A DNA stretch of 64,000 nt from contig CADAKQ010000001.1 of the NCBI GenBank assembly GCA_902788555.1, forward strand, positions 163,145 through 227,144. The letters run 5' to 3'. The position numbers and the translations under genes are program-made. Positions 4,392 to 64,000 of the stretch are shown here, one piece after another; the stretch's first letter is position 1; each line of letters opens with the position of its first letter. This DNA is from an uncultured Lachnospiraceae bacterium. Lineage in GTDB: Bacteria; Bacillota; Clostridia; Lachnospirales; Lachnospiraceae. Below the pieces are notes generated by a model. That model made no database searches. It was not told the origin of the DNA and worked only from the letters and a program-made list of their open reading frames with translations.

Positions 4392-7300
4392 ATGGTAAGA
4401 TATATGAAGAATAAAACAAGACAATTAAAGAGAAAAATTCAGGCATTCCTTATGGTATGCCTTTTTCTCGTGTCAATAGCTTATGTATCGTTTGATTCCT
4501 ATGCAAGGGATACATTTCTTTCTTCGTTTACCCAGACAATATTCAATCAAAGCAATGGTATTGGTAACAATGAAGTAAACTGTCTTCTTCAATCCTCATC
4601 AGGATATATATGGGTTGGAACGGACGGAGGCTTATACAGATATAATGGCTCCGGATTTGTAGCAATAAATCTGTGGAATACCGAGAGTGCGGATGTTTAT
4701 TCTATTAACTGTCTTATACAGGATTCGAAAGGAAGAGTTTGGATTGGAACAGACAATTACGGTTTGTTTTATTTTAAAGACGGAGAATATAAGCATCTTG
4801 AAAATGAATACTATGATGGCTTAAAAGCAATAAATGATATATGTGAGACGGAAAGCGGCAGGATTTTTGTCACAACGCCTAAAGGAATTTATGAGGCAAA
4901 GGAGGAAACTGATGGTACGGTTTTTCTTTCAGCTTTATCTATGGATGAAACGGAAGGTGTTGAATTCGGAGATGTTGAGGTTATAGGAGACAGAATTTAT
5001 GCCATTTCGGGTAAAAGTGAAATTTATATATTTGAAAATGAGGAAATACTTGAAAGGATAAATACTCAGGAAATTTCCGCAGGCGATGATTTAAGATGCT
5101 TAAGTATTATAAACCAAAAGGTGTATGCAGGAACCTCAGGAAGAAGCATTATATCTTTAGACGGTGTAGAAGGCTATGAGATTATTGACACGGATGTTTA
5201 CGGAATCAATCAAATAATGTGTGATAACAGCGGGTTGATATGGGTATGTGCAGATAACGGAATTGGTTTTATAGCTTCTGACGGAAGCTTTATAAGACTA
5301 AGTGAATGTATCATAGACAGCTATTTATCGGATATAATTGAAGATTATGAGGGGAATTATTGGATTTCCTCGGCAAGAATGGGAGTGTTGATGCTCTCAA
5401 AGAGTAAGTTCGTAGATTTTAATATGTTTACGGGTATGCCGGAAACAATGGTAAACGCTGTTTATGTTTATAAAAACAACCGTTATATATGTACAGATGA
5501 TGGTCTTATTATCTATAACGTAAACGGAGAGCGTGTCAATAATGAGCTTACAGATGCACTGGATGGTATAAGCGTAAAAAATATAATTGCGGATTCCGAG
5601 GGGAATCTCTGGATAAGTACATACAGAAAATACGGACTGATGAAATATACCTTTGGAATGGAAACCTTTGAGGAAAGCGTAAATAATATTACGAGAGGCT
5701 CCGGACTTCCGAGTAATTCCGTTAATTCCTGTGTGGAGCTTGATAACGGTAATATTGCGGTTGCTACAACTGAGGGAATAGCAGTTGTAAACAAGGACTG
5801 TGAGGTCATACATAAATTCGATAAAAAAGACGGATTAAGCGATGATGAAGTGCTTTGTATATGTCAGGGATATAATGGATATATATATGCGGGAACAGAT
5901 GGGGGAAGTCTTTACATTTTCAGAAGAAATATCGGTGAGATTGTAGATACCTTCAATTCCGATAATGGTCTTAATGCAGGTATGATTACATCCATAGAAC
6001 CCGGCGAAAAGGGCTTATGGATTGGTACTGACAACGGACTTGGATTCTATAATGATACATATAGAACGATAACCAATATAGAATATTCAAATAATATTTA
6101 TGATATTATAATAAATGATGAATTTGTCTGGCTTATAAGCTCTATGGGAGTTTTGCGTACTACCGAAGAGGAACTGCTTGGTTCAAACGGTATTTCGGGA
6201 AGATATCTGGATGCCGATGACGGACTTGGTAAAACCATAAATACATATAGTAATTCCTTTATTGACAGAAACGGAATTTTATATATATGCTGTAATACAG
6301 GTATATGCTCACTGGACACTAAAAATATATCTTATAACCAGATACCGCCTAAGATAAGGGTTACAGCCGTTGATGTGGATGGAAAAAAGTATGAATTTGA
6401 TGATTTTGCCAATGGTCTTGAGGTTGCAAGTGATGTATCAAGGATAACGATTGATTTTGCGGTATTCAGCTATAGAAACAGGGGAGATATACAGGTTGAA
6501 TATATGCTTGAGGGCTTTGACAGTGAACCGATTTTGCTGTCCGGAAGAGATACGATGCAGGCTGTATATACCAACCTTGAAGGGGGAATATATACCTTCC
6601 GTATAAATGCTTATAATGGTGACAATACACCGTGTGAAAATGAGATTTCATTTATAATTGAAAAAGAAAACAGCTTTACTGAAAATCCTGTATCAAGAAT
6701 AATAATAGTTTCTGTGGTTTTGATTGTTTTACTGCTTATAACCATCGGTATACTCGGGATGCGAAAAAGCATTAAAAATAAAAACAAAGAGCTTGAAGAG
6801 CTATCCAAGGAGCACGAGGAGGTTATCAAAACCAGCACGGCGAAAAATGACTATCTTGCCAATATGAGTAATGAGATTAAAACTCCGGTCAATGCAATGA
6901 TTTCAAAAGCGGACGAACTCATAAAGCTTATGGATGCCGAGGATGCCTATAAGGAAAATGTTCAAGATATATATGATATTGGAAACGGAATACTTGAAAA
7001 GGTGGATGATATAATTCTTCTGGCAAAGATAGAAGCAGGAAGAATCGAGTGTGTAAATGCTCCATACTCGGTTTCTACGATTATTTATGAACTGTCGGAA
7101 TATGCAAAGGAAAGTATAGATAGCGAAAATATCAGACTTTTTGTTGAGCTTGGTGACAATATAACGGATAATTTAATCGGAGACGGAGATAAGGTTGAAA
7201 GTATCTTAAAGATATTTGTTGATAATGCAATTAAATATACAAAGGAAGGCTCAATAACCATATCCGTTGATGCATATGAATTTAGTGATAAGGAAGTAAA

Positions 7301-8848: not shown

Positions 8849-8920
<72 letters not shown>

Positions 8921-8925
8921 CTTAT

Positions 8926-8965: not shown

Positions 8966-9060
8966 GAGACCCTACGGGTCTCAAAGGTTCGATCTGTCTC
9001 GTCTGTCGACTCGGTCCTCGCTAAACGCTTGCCACCGGACACCCTGCGCCGTCTCGCGCT
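8966..9060 (+). repeat. tRNA-3'-end-linked repeat, Gly copy
   Basis: A small inverted repeat GAGACCC-TAC-GGGTCTC (8966-8982) precedes GGTTCGATC (8986-8994), identical to the T-loop side of tRNA-Gly. A GC-rich insert follows (8995-9048), then CCGTCTCGCGCT (9049-9060), identical to the last 12 nt of tRNA-Gly. The insert shares GCTAAACGCTTGCCACCGG with the two copies downstream of tRNA-Leu at the far end of the window, although its hairpin 3' arm is degraded here (GGACACC instead of GGCAAGC). It is not protein-coding. Its origin is discussed in the findings. Confidence 0.8.
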
Positions 9061-10944: not shown

Positions 10945-13247
10945 TGCTTGTAAAAAAGATGCTTCGCGATATTACTAAAAATATCGGTCAATTCATATCC
11001 GTGCTTCTTCTTTCGGCATTGGCGCTTGTTACTTTTTCGGCATTTAAAAGCGAAGCCTCAGGCGGACTTAGAAGGATGGATAATTTATCTGATAAATATA
11101 ATCGTGCAGACGGATGGATATACGGAGAGGGCTTTACAAAGGAAGACCTTGATGCGGTTAAGAACCTTCCAAAGGTTAAGGATGCACAGCTAAGAACCAT
11201 GCTTTCCGGTGAAACTATTGAGTTTGAACAGGCTCAGGTTATTCTTTATCTTGAGGATGAAAATGTGGTATCGCTTCCTTACCTTGTAGAAGGAGAGGAG
11301 TTTAATCCCGCAGACAAGGAAAGTGTTTGGATAAACAAGCAGTTTGCAAAGGAGTGGGATATAGAGCTTGGAGATACCATATCGGTAAATGTAATGGGAG
11401 TAAAGATAGATAAAAAGGTTGCAGGGTTTATTTATTCACTTGAGCACATCTACATAAAGGCCGATAAGGATATGGATACAGACTTTAAAAATATAGTTTA
11501 TATGTATATGTCTTCCAAGGCGATTGATGAGTTAGCGGATATGAAGCCTACACAGCTTATATTTACAACCGATGAAAAATCTGTTAAGAAGCTTGAGGAA
11601 GATATATCAAAGGCTCTTAACGGTAATTATTCAGTGCTTGTCGATGCCGATTCTATATCCGGAATTAAAAATTATGTGAGTGAAATGGAACAGCATAATG
11701 CCTTTTCGTATGTATTTGCCGGTATATTTGTCGTTGTAAGCATATTTATCATCATGACAACCATGAGAAGAATTATAGAAGCTCAAAGAACCCAGATAGG
11801 TACTATGAGTGCGCTTGGAGTGAAGCCTTGGAAGATAGCATTTCACTATGCATCATATAGCTTTGTTCCGTCACTTGTCGGTTCGTTTGTTGGTATATAT
11901 CTTGGAATGTTTGCCATACGAAAGCTTATGTATATACTTACAAATTATTATACGCTCCCGGGTTGGAAACCGGAATTTTTGCCGGAATTTTATTTGTGTG
12001 CACTTGTTGTTGTGATAGCATGTATGCTTTCATCTTACTTTAGCTGCAAGAGACTTCTTCGTATAGAGCCTGCAGCTGCTTTAAGACCTGCACCTCCAAA
12101 GGCCGGCAAGAATACTATATTTGAAAAGCTTCCTTTTTGGAGTAAGCTTAGCTTTACGAGCACCTATAATTTGAGAGATATTTCGCGTTCAAAGCTCAGA
12201 ACTGCCATGTGTCTTATCGGGCTTTTCTTTGGAACGGCTTTTGCACTTTCGGCATTCTTTTGTTCAACTACAATGGATAAGATGAAGGATTGGAGCATGG
12301 ACAAGGTATCAGCGTATAATTATCAGATAGCTTTTCAGGGAAATGTTGATATAGATACAGCGGATAAACTTGCAGATGAATATAATGGTGAGCTTATAAT
12401 GGGAGCTCAGATTGAGATTGCAAAGACTAAGAATCAAGCTTCAGATAAAAGAGATGCATGTAATCTTGTGGTTACTGAGGGAAAAGGCTTATATGGACTG
12501 ACTGATGTCGATATAAATGAAGTAAGTATAAAGCCGGGCACGGTTGCCCTTACAAGAAAACTTGCTAAGAAGTATGGATTAGAAGTGGGTGATACGGTTT
12601 ATTGGCATGTTTACGGGGAAAATACATGGTATGAATCCGAGATTGGACTTATAAACAGGAACTTTAATACACAGGGTATTACAATTTTAAGAGCAGATTT
12701 TGAAAAGCTTGAAAATGTAACCTATAAACCTGCTCAGCTTATTACAAATGATGACGTAGATAAAAATAAGCTTCTTGATAATGAATTTATAACCTCTGTT
12801 TATTCTAAGGAGGAGATGATTGAAAATTTTGATAAGGCATGGGAAGCTATGGACGCACTCACTGCCGTATTTGCCATATTTGCCGTGATGTTTATCGTGA
12901 TAGTTCTTTACAATGCCGGAAATCTTTCTTTCAATGAAAGAAAAAGAGAGCTGGCAACCTTAAGAGTACTTGGACTTTCTGATAGCAGGATTGCCAATCT
13001 TCTTACCGTACAAAATTTATGGCTTACTATAGTTGGTATAGTAGTTGGTACACCTATCGGAAAGGCGATGATAACTGCTATGATGGATACCAATGGTGAG
13101 CAGTATGATTATGCAATATTTACCAAGCCTATGGACTATATAAAGTCATACCTTCTTGTATTTATAACGTCTGTAGTTACAAGTCTTTTATTTACGGGAA
13201 GAATAAAGAAGCTTGATATGGTTAGCCAGTTAAAGGCAAATGAATAA
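10944..13247 (+). CDS. ABC transporter permease, two FtsX domains
   Basis: About 767 aa. One N-terminal membrane helix, a large extracytoplasmic segment, three helices near residues 255-380 (first FtsX domain), a second anchor near 420, a second extracytoplasmic segment and a C-terminal FtsX helix set ending at KLDMVSQLKANE. It is the membrane partner of the ATPase immediately upstream, overlapping it by one base pair at the start codon. Start ATG 10944 is 10 nt from AAGGAGG; GTG 10938 is possible. Cargo cannot be told from sequence. Confidence 0.9.
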   Translation: MLVKKMLRDITKNIGQFISVLLLSALALVTFSAFKSEASGGLRRMDNLSDKYNRADGWIYGEGFTKEDLDAVKNLPKVKDAQLRTMLSGETIEFEQAQVILYLEDENVVSLPYLVEGEEFNPADKESVWINKQFAKEWDIELGDTISVNVMGVKIDKKVAGFIYSLEHIYIKADKDMDTDFKNIVYMYMSSKAIDELADMKPTQLIFTTDEKSVKKLEEDISKALNGNYSVLVDADSISGIKNYVSEMEQHNAFSYVFAGIFVVVSIFIIMTTMRRIIEAQRTQIGTMSALGVKPWKIAFHYASYSFVPSLVGSFVGIYLGMFAIRKLMYILTNYYTLPGWKPEFLPEFYLCALVVVIACMLSSYFSCKRLLRIEPAAALRPAPPKAGKNTIFEKLPFWSKLSFTSTYNLRDISRSKLRTAMCLIGLFFGTAFALSAFFCSTTMDKMKDWSMDKVSAYNYQIAFQGNVDIDTADKLADEYNGELIMGAQIEIAKTKNQASDKRDACNLVVTEGKGLYGLTDVDINEVSIKPGTVALTRKLAKKYGLEVGDTVYWHVYGENTWYESEIGLINRNFNTQGITILRADFEKLENVTYKPAQLITNDDVDKNKLLDNEFITSVYSKEEMIENFDKAWEAMDALTAVFAIFAVMFIVIVLYNAGNLSFNERKRELATLRVLGLSDSRIANLLTVQNLWLTIVGIVVGTPIGKAMITAMMDTNGEQYDYAIFTKPMDYIKSYLLVFITSVVTSLLFTGRIKKLDMVSQLKANE

Positions 13248-17720: not shown

Positions 17721-17980
17721 GCGGTAATCGGTGCCGATATACTTAGATTATTCTTATATGGATATTTGTGTATGAAATGCTTCTTACAATAAGTATTGAC
17801 GTTAAAAGGGAAGCAGGTGTGAATCCTGCACGATCTCGTCACTGTATTAGAGGAGTATAGGGTATGTGCATTTAAATGTGTGTTCAGAATACATTTTTTT
17901 GCAGCCACTGACAGATTATTTGTTGGGAAGGTATATCCTGTATGATGATGCTTAAGCCAGGAAACCTGCCGATTATTAGG
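17721..17980 (+). promoter_or_regulatory. Cobalamin riboswitch
   Basis: Hallmarks are in order: GGTGCC near 17730, GGGAAGCAGGTGTGAATCC at 17808-17826, GCACGATCTCGTCACTGTAT, GCCACTG at 17903-17909, GGGAAGG at 17925 and the AAGCCAGGAAACCTGCC box (17954-17970). P1 is formed by TAATCGG (17725-17731) and CCGATTA (17969-17975). It precedes the surface chelatase gene and, by proximity, the corrinoid uptake genes. Adenosylcobalamin-type ligand binding normally represses the downstream genes. Confidence 0.93.
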
Positions 17981-18198
17981 GTACAGGGATATAATCCCGG
18001 ATTACGAGGCATTAATCGTACCGTTAAAACACGAATTATTTCGGGTTCTTCTTTTAATGTCTTTTACTTTTATGTAGGAGACTTTTTTACTTTATGGAAG
18101 AGTTTTTCCATTAAGTATAATAACGGGAAAATAAACGGATATGAATGGATTTTATTTTTGTGCTTTGTCTGTATCATATAAAAGGAGGACATTTAATT
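17981..18198 (+). other. Riboswitch expression platform / 5' leader
   Basis: AT-rich leader between the aptamer and the chelatase start. It contains GGGAT-ATA-ATCCC (a candidate L13-type stem-loop), TACGA...TCGTA and a weak ATGGAA/TTCCAT stem near 18094-18111, but no convincing GC-rich terminator. Regulation could act on translation initiation. No gene is supported here. Confidence 0.4.
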
Positions 18199-62144: not shown

Positions 62145-62258
62145 GTATGTTGAAGAAGCAGAGTATCCACTCTCACCTTAGCGCAAGGGCGACTCGGGTT
62201 AATATATGCATTTTAATGGTGTATTTTTGTGTGGATAGCTATGCTATCCACATTTTTA
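62145..62258 (+). promoter_or_regulatory. Attenuator leader of the infC-rpmI-rplT operon (L20-leader-like)
   Basis: The structured leader includes GCAGAGTATCCACTCTCACC and GGGCGACTCGGGTT, resembling Firmicutes L20 leaders. A terminator stem GTGGATAGC-TAT-GCTATCCAC (62231-62251) precedes ATTTTTAT. TATCCAC at 62164-62170 is perfectly complementary to GTGGATA at 62231-62237, giving a mutually exclusive antiterminator. Excess ribosomal protein L20 would favour termination in the known mechanism; the leader class here is my assignment from memory. Confidence 0.7.
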
Positions 62259-62329
62259 TGTATTAGACATAAAGACATAAAGACAGGAATTGTGTTAGTA
62301 GGATAAGCGCGTTTTATGGAGGTGTTATT

Positions 62330-63538: not shown

Positions 63539-63572
63539 ATCACTTGCGTTGATTAATCAACGTAGGTTAAAT

Positions 63573-63656
63573 GCGGGAGTGCTGGAATTGGCAGACAGGC
63601 TAGACTAAGGATCTAGTGATGGCAACGTCGTGTGGGTTCAAGTCCCATCTCCCGCA
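63573..63656 (+). tRNA. tRNA-Leu (AAG)
   Basis: 84 nt with long variable arm, no encoded CCA. Acceptor GCGGGAG/CTCCCGC, discriminator A. Anticodon stem CTAGA/TCTAG, loop CTAAGGA, so the anticodon is AAG (63607-63609). The T-arm reads TGGGTTCAAGTCCCA. A34 tRNAs for Leu are uncommon in bacteria and need deamination to inosine, known for some Firmicutes. Confidence 0.93.
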
Positions 63657-63661
63657 TGTTT

Positions 63662-63701
63662 AAAAAAAGAGTTCGAGTCAGATGACTCGAGCTCTTTTTT
63701 T
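63662..63701. terminator. Terminator after tRNA-Leu
   Basis: 19-bp stem, AAAAAAAGAGTTCGAGTCA against TGACTCGAGCTCTTTTTTT with one G-T wobble, loop GA. Confidence 0.88.
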
Positions 63702-63717: not shown

Positions 63718-63803
63718 CCTTGAACCCAAGGGTTCAAGGTCTCGCCTCCGGCTCGGTCGGTGCTGAACGTTTGCCGCCGGCAAGCAGCACCCCATCTCCC
63801 GCG
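63718..63803 (+). repeat. tRNA-3'-end-linked repeat, Leu copy 1
   Basis: CCTTGAACCC-AA-GGGTTCAAGG (63718-63739) is a perfect inverted repeat whose right half equals the tRNA-Leu T-loop GGGTTCAAG. The insert 63739-63790 holds a two-part stem: GGTGCT/AGCACC, then bulge GAAC, then GTTTGCC/GGCAAGC with loop GCC. It ends CCCATCTCCCGC plus G (63791-63803), the tRNA-Leu 3' end with A changed to G. Confidence 0.85.
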
Positions 63804-63814
63804 ATAGTGGAGCG

Positions 63815-63899
63815 CCTTAAAACAAGGGTCCAAGGTCTCGCCTCCGGCTCGGTCCGCGCTAAACGCTTGCCACCGGCAAGCAGCGCCCCATCTCCCGCA
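63815..63899 (+). repeat. tRNA-3'-end-linked repeat, Leu copy 2
   Basis: Same layout, 96 bp after copy 1: GGGTCCAAG (63826-63834), insert 63835-63886 with stem GCGCT/AGCGC, bulge AAAC, and GCTTGCC/GGCAAGC with loop ACC. It ends CCCATCTCCCGCA (63887-63899), identical to the tRNA-Leu 3' end. The outer stem differs from copy 1 but stays paired, and the unit shares AGGTCTCGCCTCCGGCTCGG with it. Confidence 0.85.
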
Positions 63900-63901
63900 T
63901 T

Positions 63902-63940
63902 AAAAAAGGGGCTGTCGCACTAAATGCACAGCTCCTTTTT
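63902..63940. terminator. Hairpin terminator
   Basis: AAAAAAGGGGCTGT pairs with ACAGCTCCTTTTT around an ~12-nt loop, with one G-T. It closes the tRNA-Leu/repeat region. Confidence 0.8.
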
Positions 63941-63953
63941 ATCTGTTTATAAA

Positions 63954-63989
63954 AACAAAAACCAGGCTATAAAAAGTCTGGTTTTTGTT
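63954..63989. terminator. Second hairpin terminator at window end
   Basis: AACAAAAACCAG and CTGGTTTTTGTT form a 12-bp stem with a 12-nt loop. It may serve a convergent gene beyond the window. Confidence 0.75.
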
Positions 63990-64000
63990 GTAAAATATAT

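Follow-up and report, generated by a model that had tools for sequence, protein, structure and literature searches.

What are the two GC-rich hairpin units that follow one another behind a tRNA-Leu gene of an uncultured Lachnospiraceae bacterium, and how did they come to lie within copies of tRNA sequence? The window, which is the whole stretch of 64,000 nt analysed here, belongs to contig C1 of the genome G000. The original prediction, made from the sequence of the window, raised three possibilities: a tiny mobile element that uses tRNA 3' ends as target, a tRNA-like decoy, and a processing or termination element. Our analysis indicates that the units are probably copies of a short mobile DNA repeat, non-autonomous and about 53 nt long, which consists of two hairpins and is moved in trans. 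The decoy and termination roles find no support in this analysis.

Two 53-nt elements in copies of a tRNA-Leu 3' half

The intact tRNA-Leu gene (anticodon AAG) is located at 63572..63657 on the plus strand (ARAGORN; Rfam RF00005, 50.9 bits), and the uninterrupted form of its 3' half is GGGTTCAAGTCCCATCTCCCGCA. Directly 3' of the gene, within inverted repeat I1, a hairpin followed by a T-run (63662..63701, plus strand) is terminator-like by eye; a terminator consensus scan called only a minus-strand site there, at 63673-63690. The first unit is preceded by a fold-back, CCTTGAACCC-AA-GGGTTCAAGG (63718..63739, plus strand), which is composed of the reverse complement and a forward copy of the 5' strand of the tRNA T-arm and resembles fold-backs behind other tRNAs. 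Element copy 1 follows at 63739..63791 on the plus strand, with hairpin 1 within 63739-63758 and hairpin 2 at 63759-63791 (70.7 bits to the element model, G000:C1:226883-226935). Next to it is a second copy of the tRNA 3' strand, CCCATCTCCCGC (63791..63802, plus strand), the first C of which is common with the end of the element. A third copy of the T-arm 5' strand, GGGTCCAAG (63826..63834, plus strand), leads to element copy 2 at 63835..63887 on the plus strand, with hairpin 1 within 63835-63854 and hairpin 2 at 63855-63887 (74.5 bits, G000:C1:226979-227031). Sequence comparison and the repeat search placed a third copy of the tRNA 3' end, CCCATCTCCCGCA, at 63887..63899 (plus strand). Both elements lie at the T-loop of the second and third copies of the tRNA-Leu 3' half.

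A repeat search of the window found one family with two 76-nt copies, 63727-63802 and 63823-63898, which are 91% identical at a spacing of 96 nt, in agreement with the predicted tandem pair. The predicted tRNA-Leu flanks, GGGTTCAAG or GGGTCCAAG on the left and CCCATCTCCCGC on the right of each element, are also present in the sequence. An insert does lie between these flanks as claimed, and its length changes from 52 to 53 nt when the bounds (63739-63791 and 63835-63887) are set by comparison with relatives and the C after the outer stem is included. What had been taken for a third copy is the uninterrupted tRNA 3' end and not an element. Hairpin 2 reads GGTGCT-GAAC-GTTTGCC-GCC-GGCAAGC-AGCACC in copy 1 and GCGCT-AAAC-GCTTGCC-ACC-GGCAAGC-AGCGC in copy 2. 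The proposed fold of outer stem, bulge and inner stem agrees with folding of the regions as DNA, compared with dinucleotide shuffles (z -2.84 for copy 1 and -2.27 for copy 2). The inner-stem wobble is present, with the correction that the G-T form (GTTTGCC) belongs to copy 1. The GC content of the elements is about 0.69-0.70, compared with 0.367 in the whole window, so the description as GC-rich sequence in an AT-rich genome holds.

A core pattern allowing up to 3 mismatches was found at 5 places in the window, compared with 0.07 expected from shuffles. These are the two Leu copies, a copy behind tRNA-Gly, the reverse strand of copy 2 and a place at 11906, which is taken for chance. The region behind tRNA-Leu(AAG) of G024 contains the hairpin, a T-arm fold-back and a partial reverse complement of the tRNA end, but no element; the fold-back can therefore exist without the element. 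The contig ends at window 63907-64000 within a sequence, GGGGCTGTCGCACTAAATGCACAGCTCC..., which is shared at 98-100% identity with the ends of four other contigs of the genome; it looks like the terminus of an insertion sequence present in several copies, which interrupted the assembly. Rfam found an L20 leader at 62150-62265 and a cobalamin riboswitch at 17761-17987 in the window, both ordinary.

The copy behind tRNA-Gly, absent from the original prediction, is decayed. It is located at 8996..9050 (plus strand; 36.8 bits to the element model, G000:C1:172140-172194) behind an intact tRNA-Gly (GCC) at 8849..8921 (plus strand, ARAGORN). In its hairpin 2, 7 of 12 pairs are broken, and this hairpin looks like a chimera with the 5' arm of one type and the 3' arm of another. 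Intact relatives occupy the same kind of site in G004, G008, G014 and G023. Nine matches to the element model were found in the whole genome G000. C1 has three, behind tRNA-Leu and tRNA-Gly, and C50 another three, around tRNA-Pro, one of which is weak. Single matches are located on C8, within a tRNA-Leu 3' half, on C22, in a tRNA-like stretch without an ARAGORN call, and on C47, at a gene start.

On C8 (L006; L011 596-681), a tRNA-Leu(CAG) gene is located about 3 kb before the tRNA-Leu 3' half that carries the element, and a frame that by eye ends like a tyrosine recombinase lies between them. In G004, G023 and G024, 67-69 nt separate tRNA-Leu from an element with these flanks, as if an integrative element had entered the G000 locus later. 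Loci of this kind bear on the explanation that the copies are relics of the attachment sites of integrases acting at tRNA 3' ends. The duplication of tRNA 3' halves beside the copies would be consistent with it, as would the frame adjoining the 3' half on C8. Nevertheless, we consider this explanation extremely improbable, because the 53-nt element also occurs without surrounding tRNA sequence and the filled and empty sites described below differ by the element alone.

Covariation and scarcity of G-U pairs

Across relatives, the element of about 53 nt has the layout TCT, hairpin 1, CGGTC, hairpin 2 and C. Hairpin 2 is composed of an outer stem, a one-sided 4-nt bulge that is usually NAAC, and an inner stem closed by CC-NCN-GG. 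The three-base loop is ACN in 136 of 146 hairpin-2 candidates. The bulge among the same candidates, for which the selection rule required xAAC, is AAAC in 103, TAAC in 23 and GAAC in 20; other bulges exist, as in family f87. At 57 of 59 public sites and 19 of 20 genus sites, a C follows the outer stem. We counted it as the last base of the element, and it may belong to the target.

The 188 raw matches were reduced to the 146 hairpin-2 candidates, to 95 copies passing the hairpin 1 rule, and to 89 distinct elements. Alignment A1 contains 86 of the 89, and the element model was built from these copies; L041:1421, L041:1600 and L053:1548 were left out, each being directly followed by another copy. 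In the 86 copies 97.6% of cells are paired, two-sided changes occur at 11 of 15 pairs, and the stems show 166 two-sided and 5 one-sided changes. The covariation score was 0.374; shuffling gave 0.098 (0 of 500), and slid structures did not exceed 0.059. Covariation is thus found in a wide alignment, as the original prediction had supposed, and it upholds the claim of selection on an RNA or single-stranded DNA structure.

Which of the two is selected may be read from the G-U pairs, whose scarcity favours DNA. They make up 5 of 1259 paired cells (0.4%) in the element stems and 5 of 657 (0.8%) on the eight pairs not fixed by the search pattern. The share in tRNA acceptor and T stems of the fetched loci, with 93 of 100 tRNAs used, is 91 of 1104 (8.2%). 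G-U pairs are 11- to 20-fold rarer in the element than in tRNA stems from these loci. Selection on an RNA leads through G-U intermediates, whereas a DNA hairpin or an inverted repeat whose arms are copied from each other need not pass through them, and the scarcity therefore favours a DNA hairpin over an RNA. We infer from the aligned sequences that pairing or arm-to-arm copying may act at the DNA level. Watson-Crick switching with few G-U steps may be a means of distinguishing DNA hairpins from RNA hairpins by sequence alone.

Distribution, empty sites and association with tRNA genes

The element model matched 20 of 37 genomes of the genus (E 0.01) and gave no match in the remaining 17, several of which are incomplete. 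Matches were found in 27 of 391 genomes drawn from the class, in 20 of 222 genera (E 0.001), with 3 of the 27 carriers identified by one weak match only. The copies per genome reach at least 14 in this sample, in which all copy numbers are lower bounds. A degenerate hairpin-2 pattern detected at least 115 stretches in a named genome collection, and the matches listed include Lachnospiraceae, Blautia, Fusicatenibacter, Defluviitaleaceae, other Clostridia and entries named only "bacterium". The plasmid collection gave no element match. In the phage collection, two unannotated faecal records match a typed consensus, MT837121.1 at 2488-2539 (90%) and MT837262.1 at 7207-7259 (87%), and these phages are a possible vehicle for the element. 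Three stretches in viral contigs match; L180 is a Defluviitaleaceae-type copy, and L178 looks like chance. Rfam had no family at gathering score for the window plus 8 loci, with only chance-level matches below it. No description of the repeat was found in the open literature, judged by titles and the starts of abstracts, and the family, present in many Clostridia, is apparently undescribed.

Four comparisons of filled and empty sites were obtained. Three of them are in one tRNA array, the surrounding genes of which look chromosomal by eye. The tRNA-Ile gene of G008 is identical to that of G023 except that TT in the T-loop is replaced by a 54-nt insert. The T-loops of tRNA-His and tRNA-Ser(TGA) are interrupted in G023 and intact in G024, and the insert in tRNA-Ser(TGA) reads as a nested pair. 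Insertion is precise and has one orientation at the three T-loops, and the insert presumably stands in the place of tRNA bases 59-60. The fourth site is a gene starting MNKNDYIIRLE, which has a reversed element just before the start codon in G000, G016 and G024 and no element in G008, G014, G022 and G012. The empty site in G008 is CAGGAGAATAAATAATG, and the filled site is CAGGAG-element-ACAAAATAATG, GGAG standing at either end of the insert. There is no target duplication at tRNA-Ile and tRNA-His, where two bases are lost, and GGAG is found on both sides at this Shine-Dalgarno site. Nested copies were found inside hairpin 2 of other copies (L038, L044 and L055). Unrelated flanks surround one and the same element sequence in genus g174 (L296 and L297 of G332, L249 and L251). 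Because of the four filled and empty comparisons, the nesting, the identical copies at unrelated flanks and the patchy distribution, we conclude that the element is mobile, as one of the original suggestions had it.

Other repeats are associated with some copies. In L174, L157, L123, L110 and L150, from Lachnospiraceae, the outer stem of hairpin 2 encloses a palindromic module of another kind, GAATATCCC...GGGATGCC..CCGGCGAGG or a similar sequence. Copies also lie inside other repeats, AGATTCTTCGC..GCTCAGAATGACA in L099, L112 and L176, and CACCTCATC..GGGGAAGGC or near forms in L130, L131 and L299-L301. Several repeat families seem to be nested in these genomes.

T-loops occur in abundant RNAs, and in the array the same loop was hit in three tRNA genes, with the same orientation. 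This would be consistent with entry of the element into tRNA or mRNA at loops and copying back by a reverse transcriptase. We regard such an RNA-mediated route as very unlikely. A reverse transcriptase match (RVT_1) was found in only 12 of 27 carriers tested, and in neither G000 nor G264, so that this enzyme was not supported as mobiliser. Moreover, the copies at tRNA-Pro and before gene starts have an antisense orientation relative to the RNA, and the few G-U pairs also speak against this route.

The predicted use of tRNA 3' ends as target holds in part. In the genus, 43 of 68 examined rows are within 250 nt of an ARAGORN tRNA, a count that includes orthologous sites and hence non-independent events; the 68 rows come from an 89-row table after repeated loci and weak matches were left out, and the overlapping contig ends L275 and L276 may count one place twice. 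Outside the genus, only 11 of 121 public-scan hits (90 of which have 250 nt on both sides, with two L084 hits taken as those of G004) and 3 of 33 class-sample copies are within this distance, and some genus copies stand before start codons instead. The copies outside the genus are mostly away from tRNAs, and the element is therefore not tRNA-specific. L312 contains one further copy in an interrupted T-loop, as read by eye, and L064 has one copy beside tRNA-Glu. In the cultured carrier Eubacterium ruminantium ATCC 17233 (L067), a distance of 85 nt separates the copy from tRNA-Leu.

The positions within the genus raise the question of whether the element is a structured RNA of the host, such as a small RNA or a processing or termination element, that is kept behind certain tRNA genes. 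The stems covary strongly, 32 of the 43 tRNA-near rows are at 60-100 nt, mostly behind tRNA-Leu, -Gly and -Pro, and the same kinds of tRNA site are occupied in many species of the genus. Site-specific conservation was assessed in 32 hand-assigned tRNA-linked genus copies, with the decayed Gly copy of G000 left out. Between genomes, hairpin 1 is alike at corresponding sites (0.891, expected 0.832, reached by 29 of 2000 shuffles), but it is not alike by genome (0.814, expected 0.802, 605 of 2000 shuffles). For hairpin 2, the likeness is among the sites of one genome (0.856, expected 0.763, 0 of 2000 shuffles), with a slight site signal in addition (0.760, expected 0.738, 5 of 2000 shuffles). The conservation of hairpin 1 by site and the residual signal in hairpin 2 would fit a host function. 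However, a host RNA is an unlikely explanation in view of the scarce G-U pairs, the copies outside the genus that lie mostly away from tRNAs, the precise empty sites and nested copies, the 17 of 37 genus genomes without a match (several incomplete), and the lack of an Rfam family at gathering score. For a mobile repeat, the same likeness looks like the result of active copies that keep replacing or converting hairpin 2 at fixed sites, which would leave hairpin 1 alike by site and hairpin 2 alike within a genome.

A second context in the genus is the start of genes. A reading-frame start is found to the left of 13 of 64 copies and to the right of 3 of 64, compared with a background of 12% per side (about 8 of 64). 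Among 71 public copies the numbers are 7 on the left and 13 on the right, below or near the 20% background. The gene-start context is therefore a matter of the genus. Only nine of the 13 left-side starts look like real gene starts, and they come from about seven genes. Nine reversed copies stand just before a start codon in the genus (L242, L266, L269, L270, L232, L271, L277, L279 and L281). The end of the element, at Shine-Dalgarno distance, is GGAGA in eight of these and CGAGA in L242, and GGAG is found on the other side in six. It is possible, if doubtful, that the mobile element hides in host signals, namely the T-loop of tRNA genes and Shine-Dalgarno sequences, where it supplies its own correctly spaced GGAG. 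Apical loops of hairpins were rejected as a general target; the signal is weak in 59 public sites (z -3.6 for folding energy and 4.1 for stem score) and fails in 20 genus sites (z -0.44 and 1.75).

Candidate mobilisers and relation to known repeats

None of the three enzymes considered matches the distribution of the element. Y1 transposases (PF01797, including RAYT) were not supported as mobiliser: within the genus, Y1_Tnp was detected in 4 of 20 genomes that have the element and in 4 of 17 without it, with no match in G000, and outside the genus it is present in 9 of 17 carriers and without match in 8 of 17. IS110 (PF01548, DEDD_Tnp_IS110) was not supported either, since matches were missing from 11 of the 17 carriers outside the genus (G351, G264, G443, G332, G347, G390, G419, G112, G331, G276 and G315). 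In the genus, the IS110 model gave weak N-terminal matches in frames of about 1400 residues, which from their size may be Cas9, and the only match in G000 is of this kind. The carriers G264, G390, G112 and G276, the last only 82% complete, have no Y1, IS110 or RVT_1 match. The fetched loci contained no longer form in which a gene separates the two hairpins; the four same-strand pairs found there all lie within 132 nt and are not gene-sized. It is possible that the mobiliser was lost after its activity, that it is borne by a phage or plasmid, or that it is of another kind; several of the genomes are incomplete.

The element may move in trans as a folded single strand, the structure being the argument for single-stranded movement. 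An enzyme encoded elsewhere would recognise the hairpins together with the bulge and the GGTC that precedes hairpin 2. In the genus, the element would have settled mainly at T-loops of tRNA genes and of duplicated tRNA 3' halves.

This is similar to REP sequences and BIMEs, which are mobilised by RAYT (TnpA-REP, a Y1 HUH enzyme). Like these, the element is a short hairpin repeat in many copies without a transposase gene of its own, and it has a conserved tetranucleotide before the foot of a hairpin, GG[TC]C before hairpin 2, which is less constant before hairpin 1. REP sequences are 21-65 nt long and carry a 5' GT[AG]G guide tetranucleotide at the hairpin foot, according to PMC6006769, whereas the tetranucleotide of the element in alignment A1 is GG[TC]C. 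The element also differs from REP in having two unlike hairpins, one of them with a one-sided NAAC bulge, in its location inside tRNA genes, and in the lack of association with PF01797. It is REP-like in build and probably also in behaviour.

MITEs share with the element a small size, the lack of autonomy, hairpin formation and many copies in some genomes. However, its ends (GTCT... and ...AGCNNC, compared by eye in A1) are not complementary, so it has no terminal inverted repeat, and the compared sites show no constant target duplication. Rickettsia palindromic elements, which are about 100-150 nt long and known from protein genes, are likewise palindromes inside genes that are possibly tolerated, a likeness in general features; the present element differs in its 53 nt, its occurrence in Clostridia and its tRNA T-loop and Shine-Dalgarno sites. 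IS110 and IS200/IS605 have no constant target duplication and prefer structured targets, and in both respects the element resembles what derivatives of them would be, but the matches are missing in 11 of 17 (IS110) and 8 of 17 (Y1) carriers outside the genus. We class it as a family of small, non-autonomous hairpin repeats, which in one genus shows unusual precision for tRNA T-loops.

The finding raises the question of which enzyme moves a 53-nt hairpin element where no Y1, IS110 or reverse transcriptase gene is detected, and whether a tRNA can tolerate 54 nt inserted at positions 59-60. At these bases of the T-loop, an extra domain might leave the tRNA fold intact. On the doubtful reading that the element hides in host signals, the interrupted tRNAs would work with a 54-nt hairpin domain extending from the T-loop, or would be restored when the insert is removed. 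Its description adds to the very small mobile DNA of common Clostridia a family that is apparently unnamed, and provides a natural case of tRNA genes interrupted in the T-loop.
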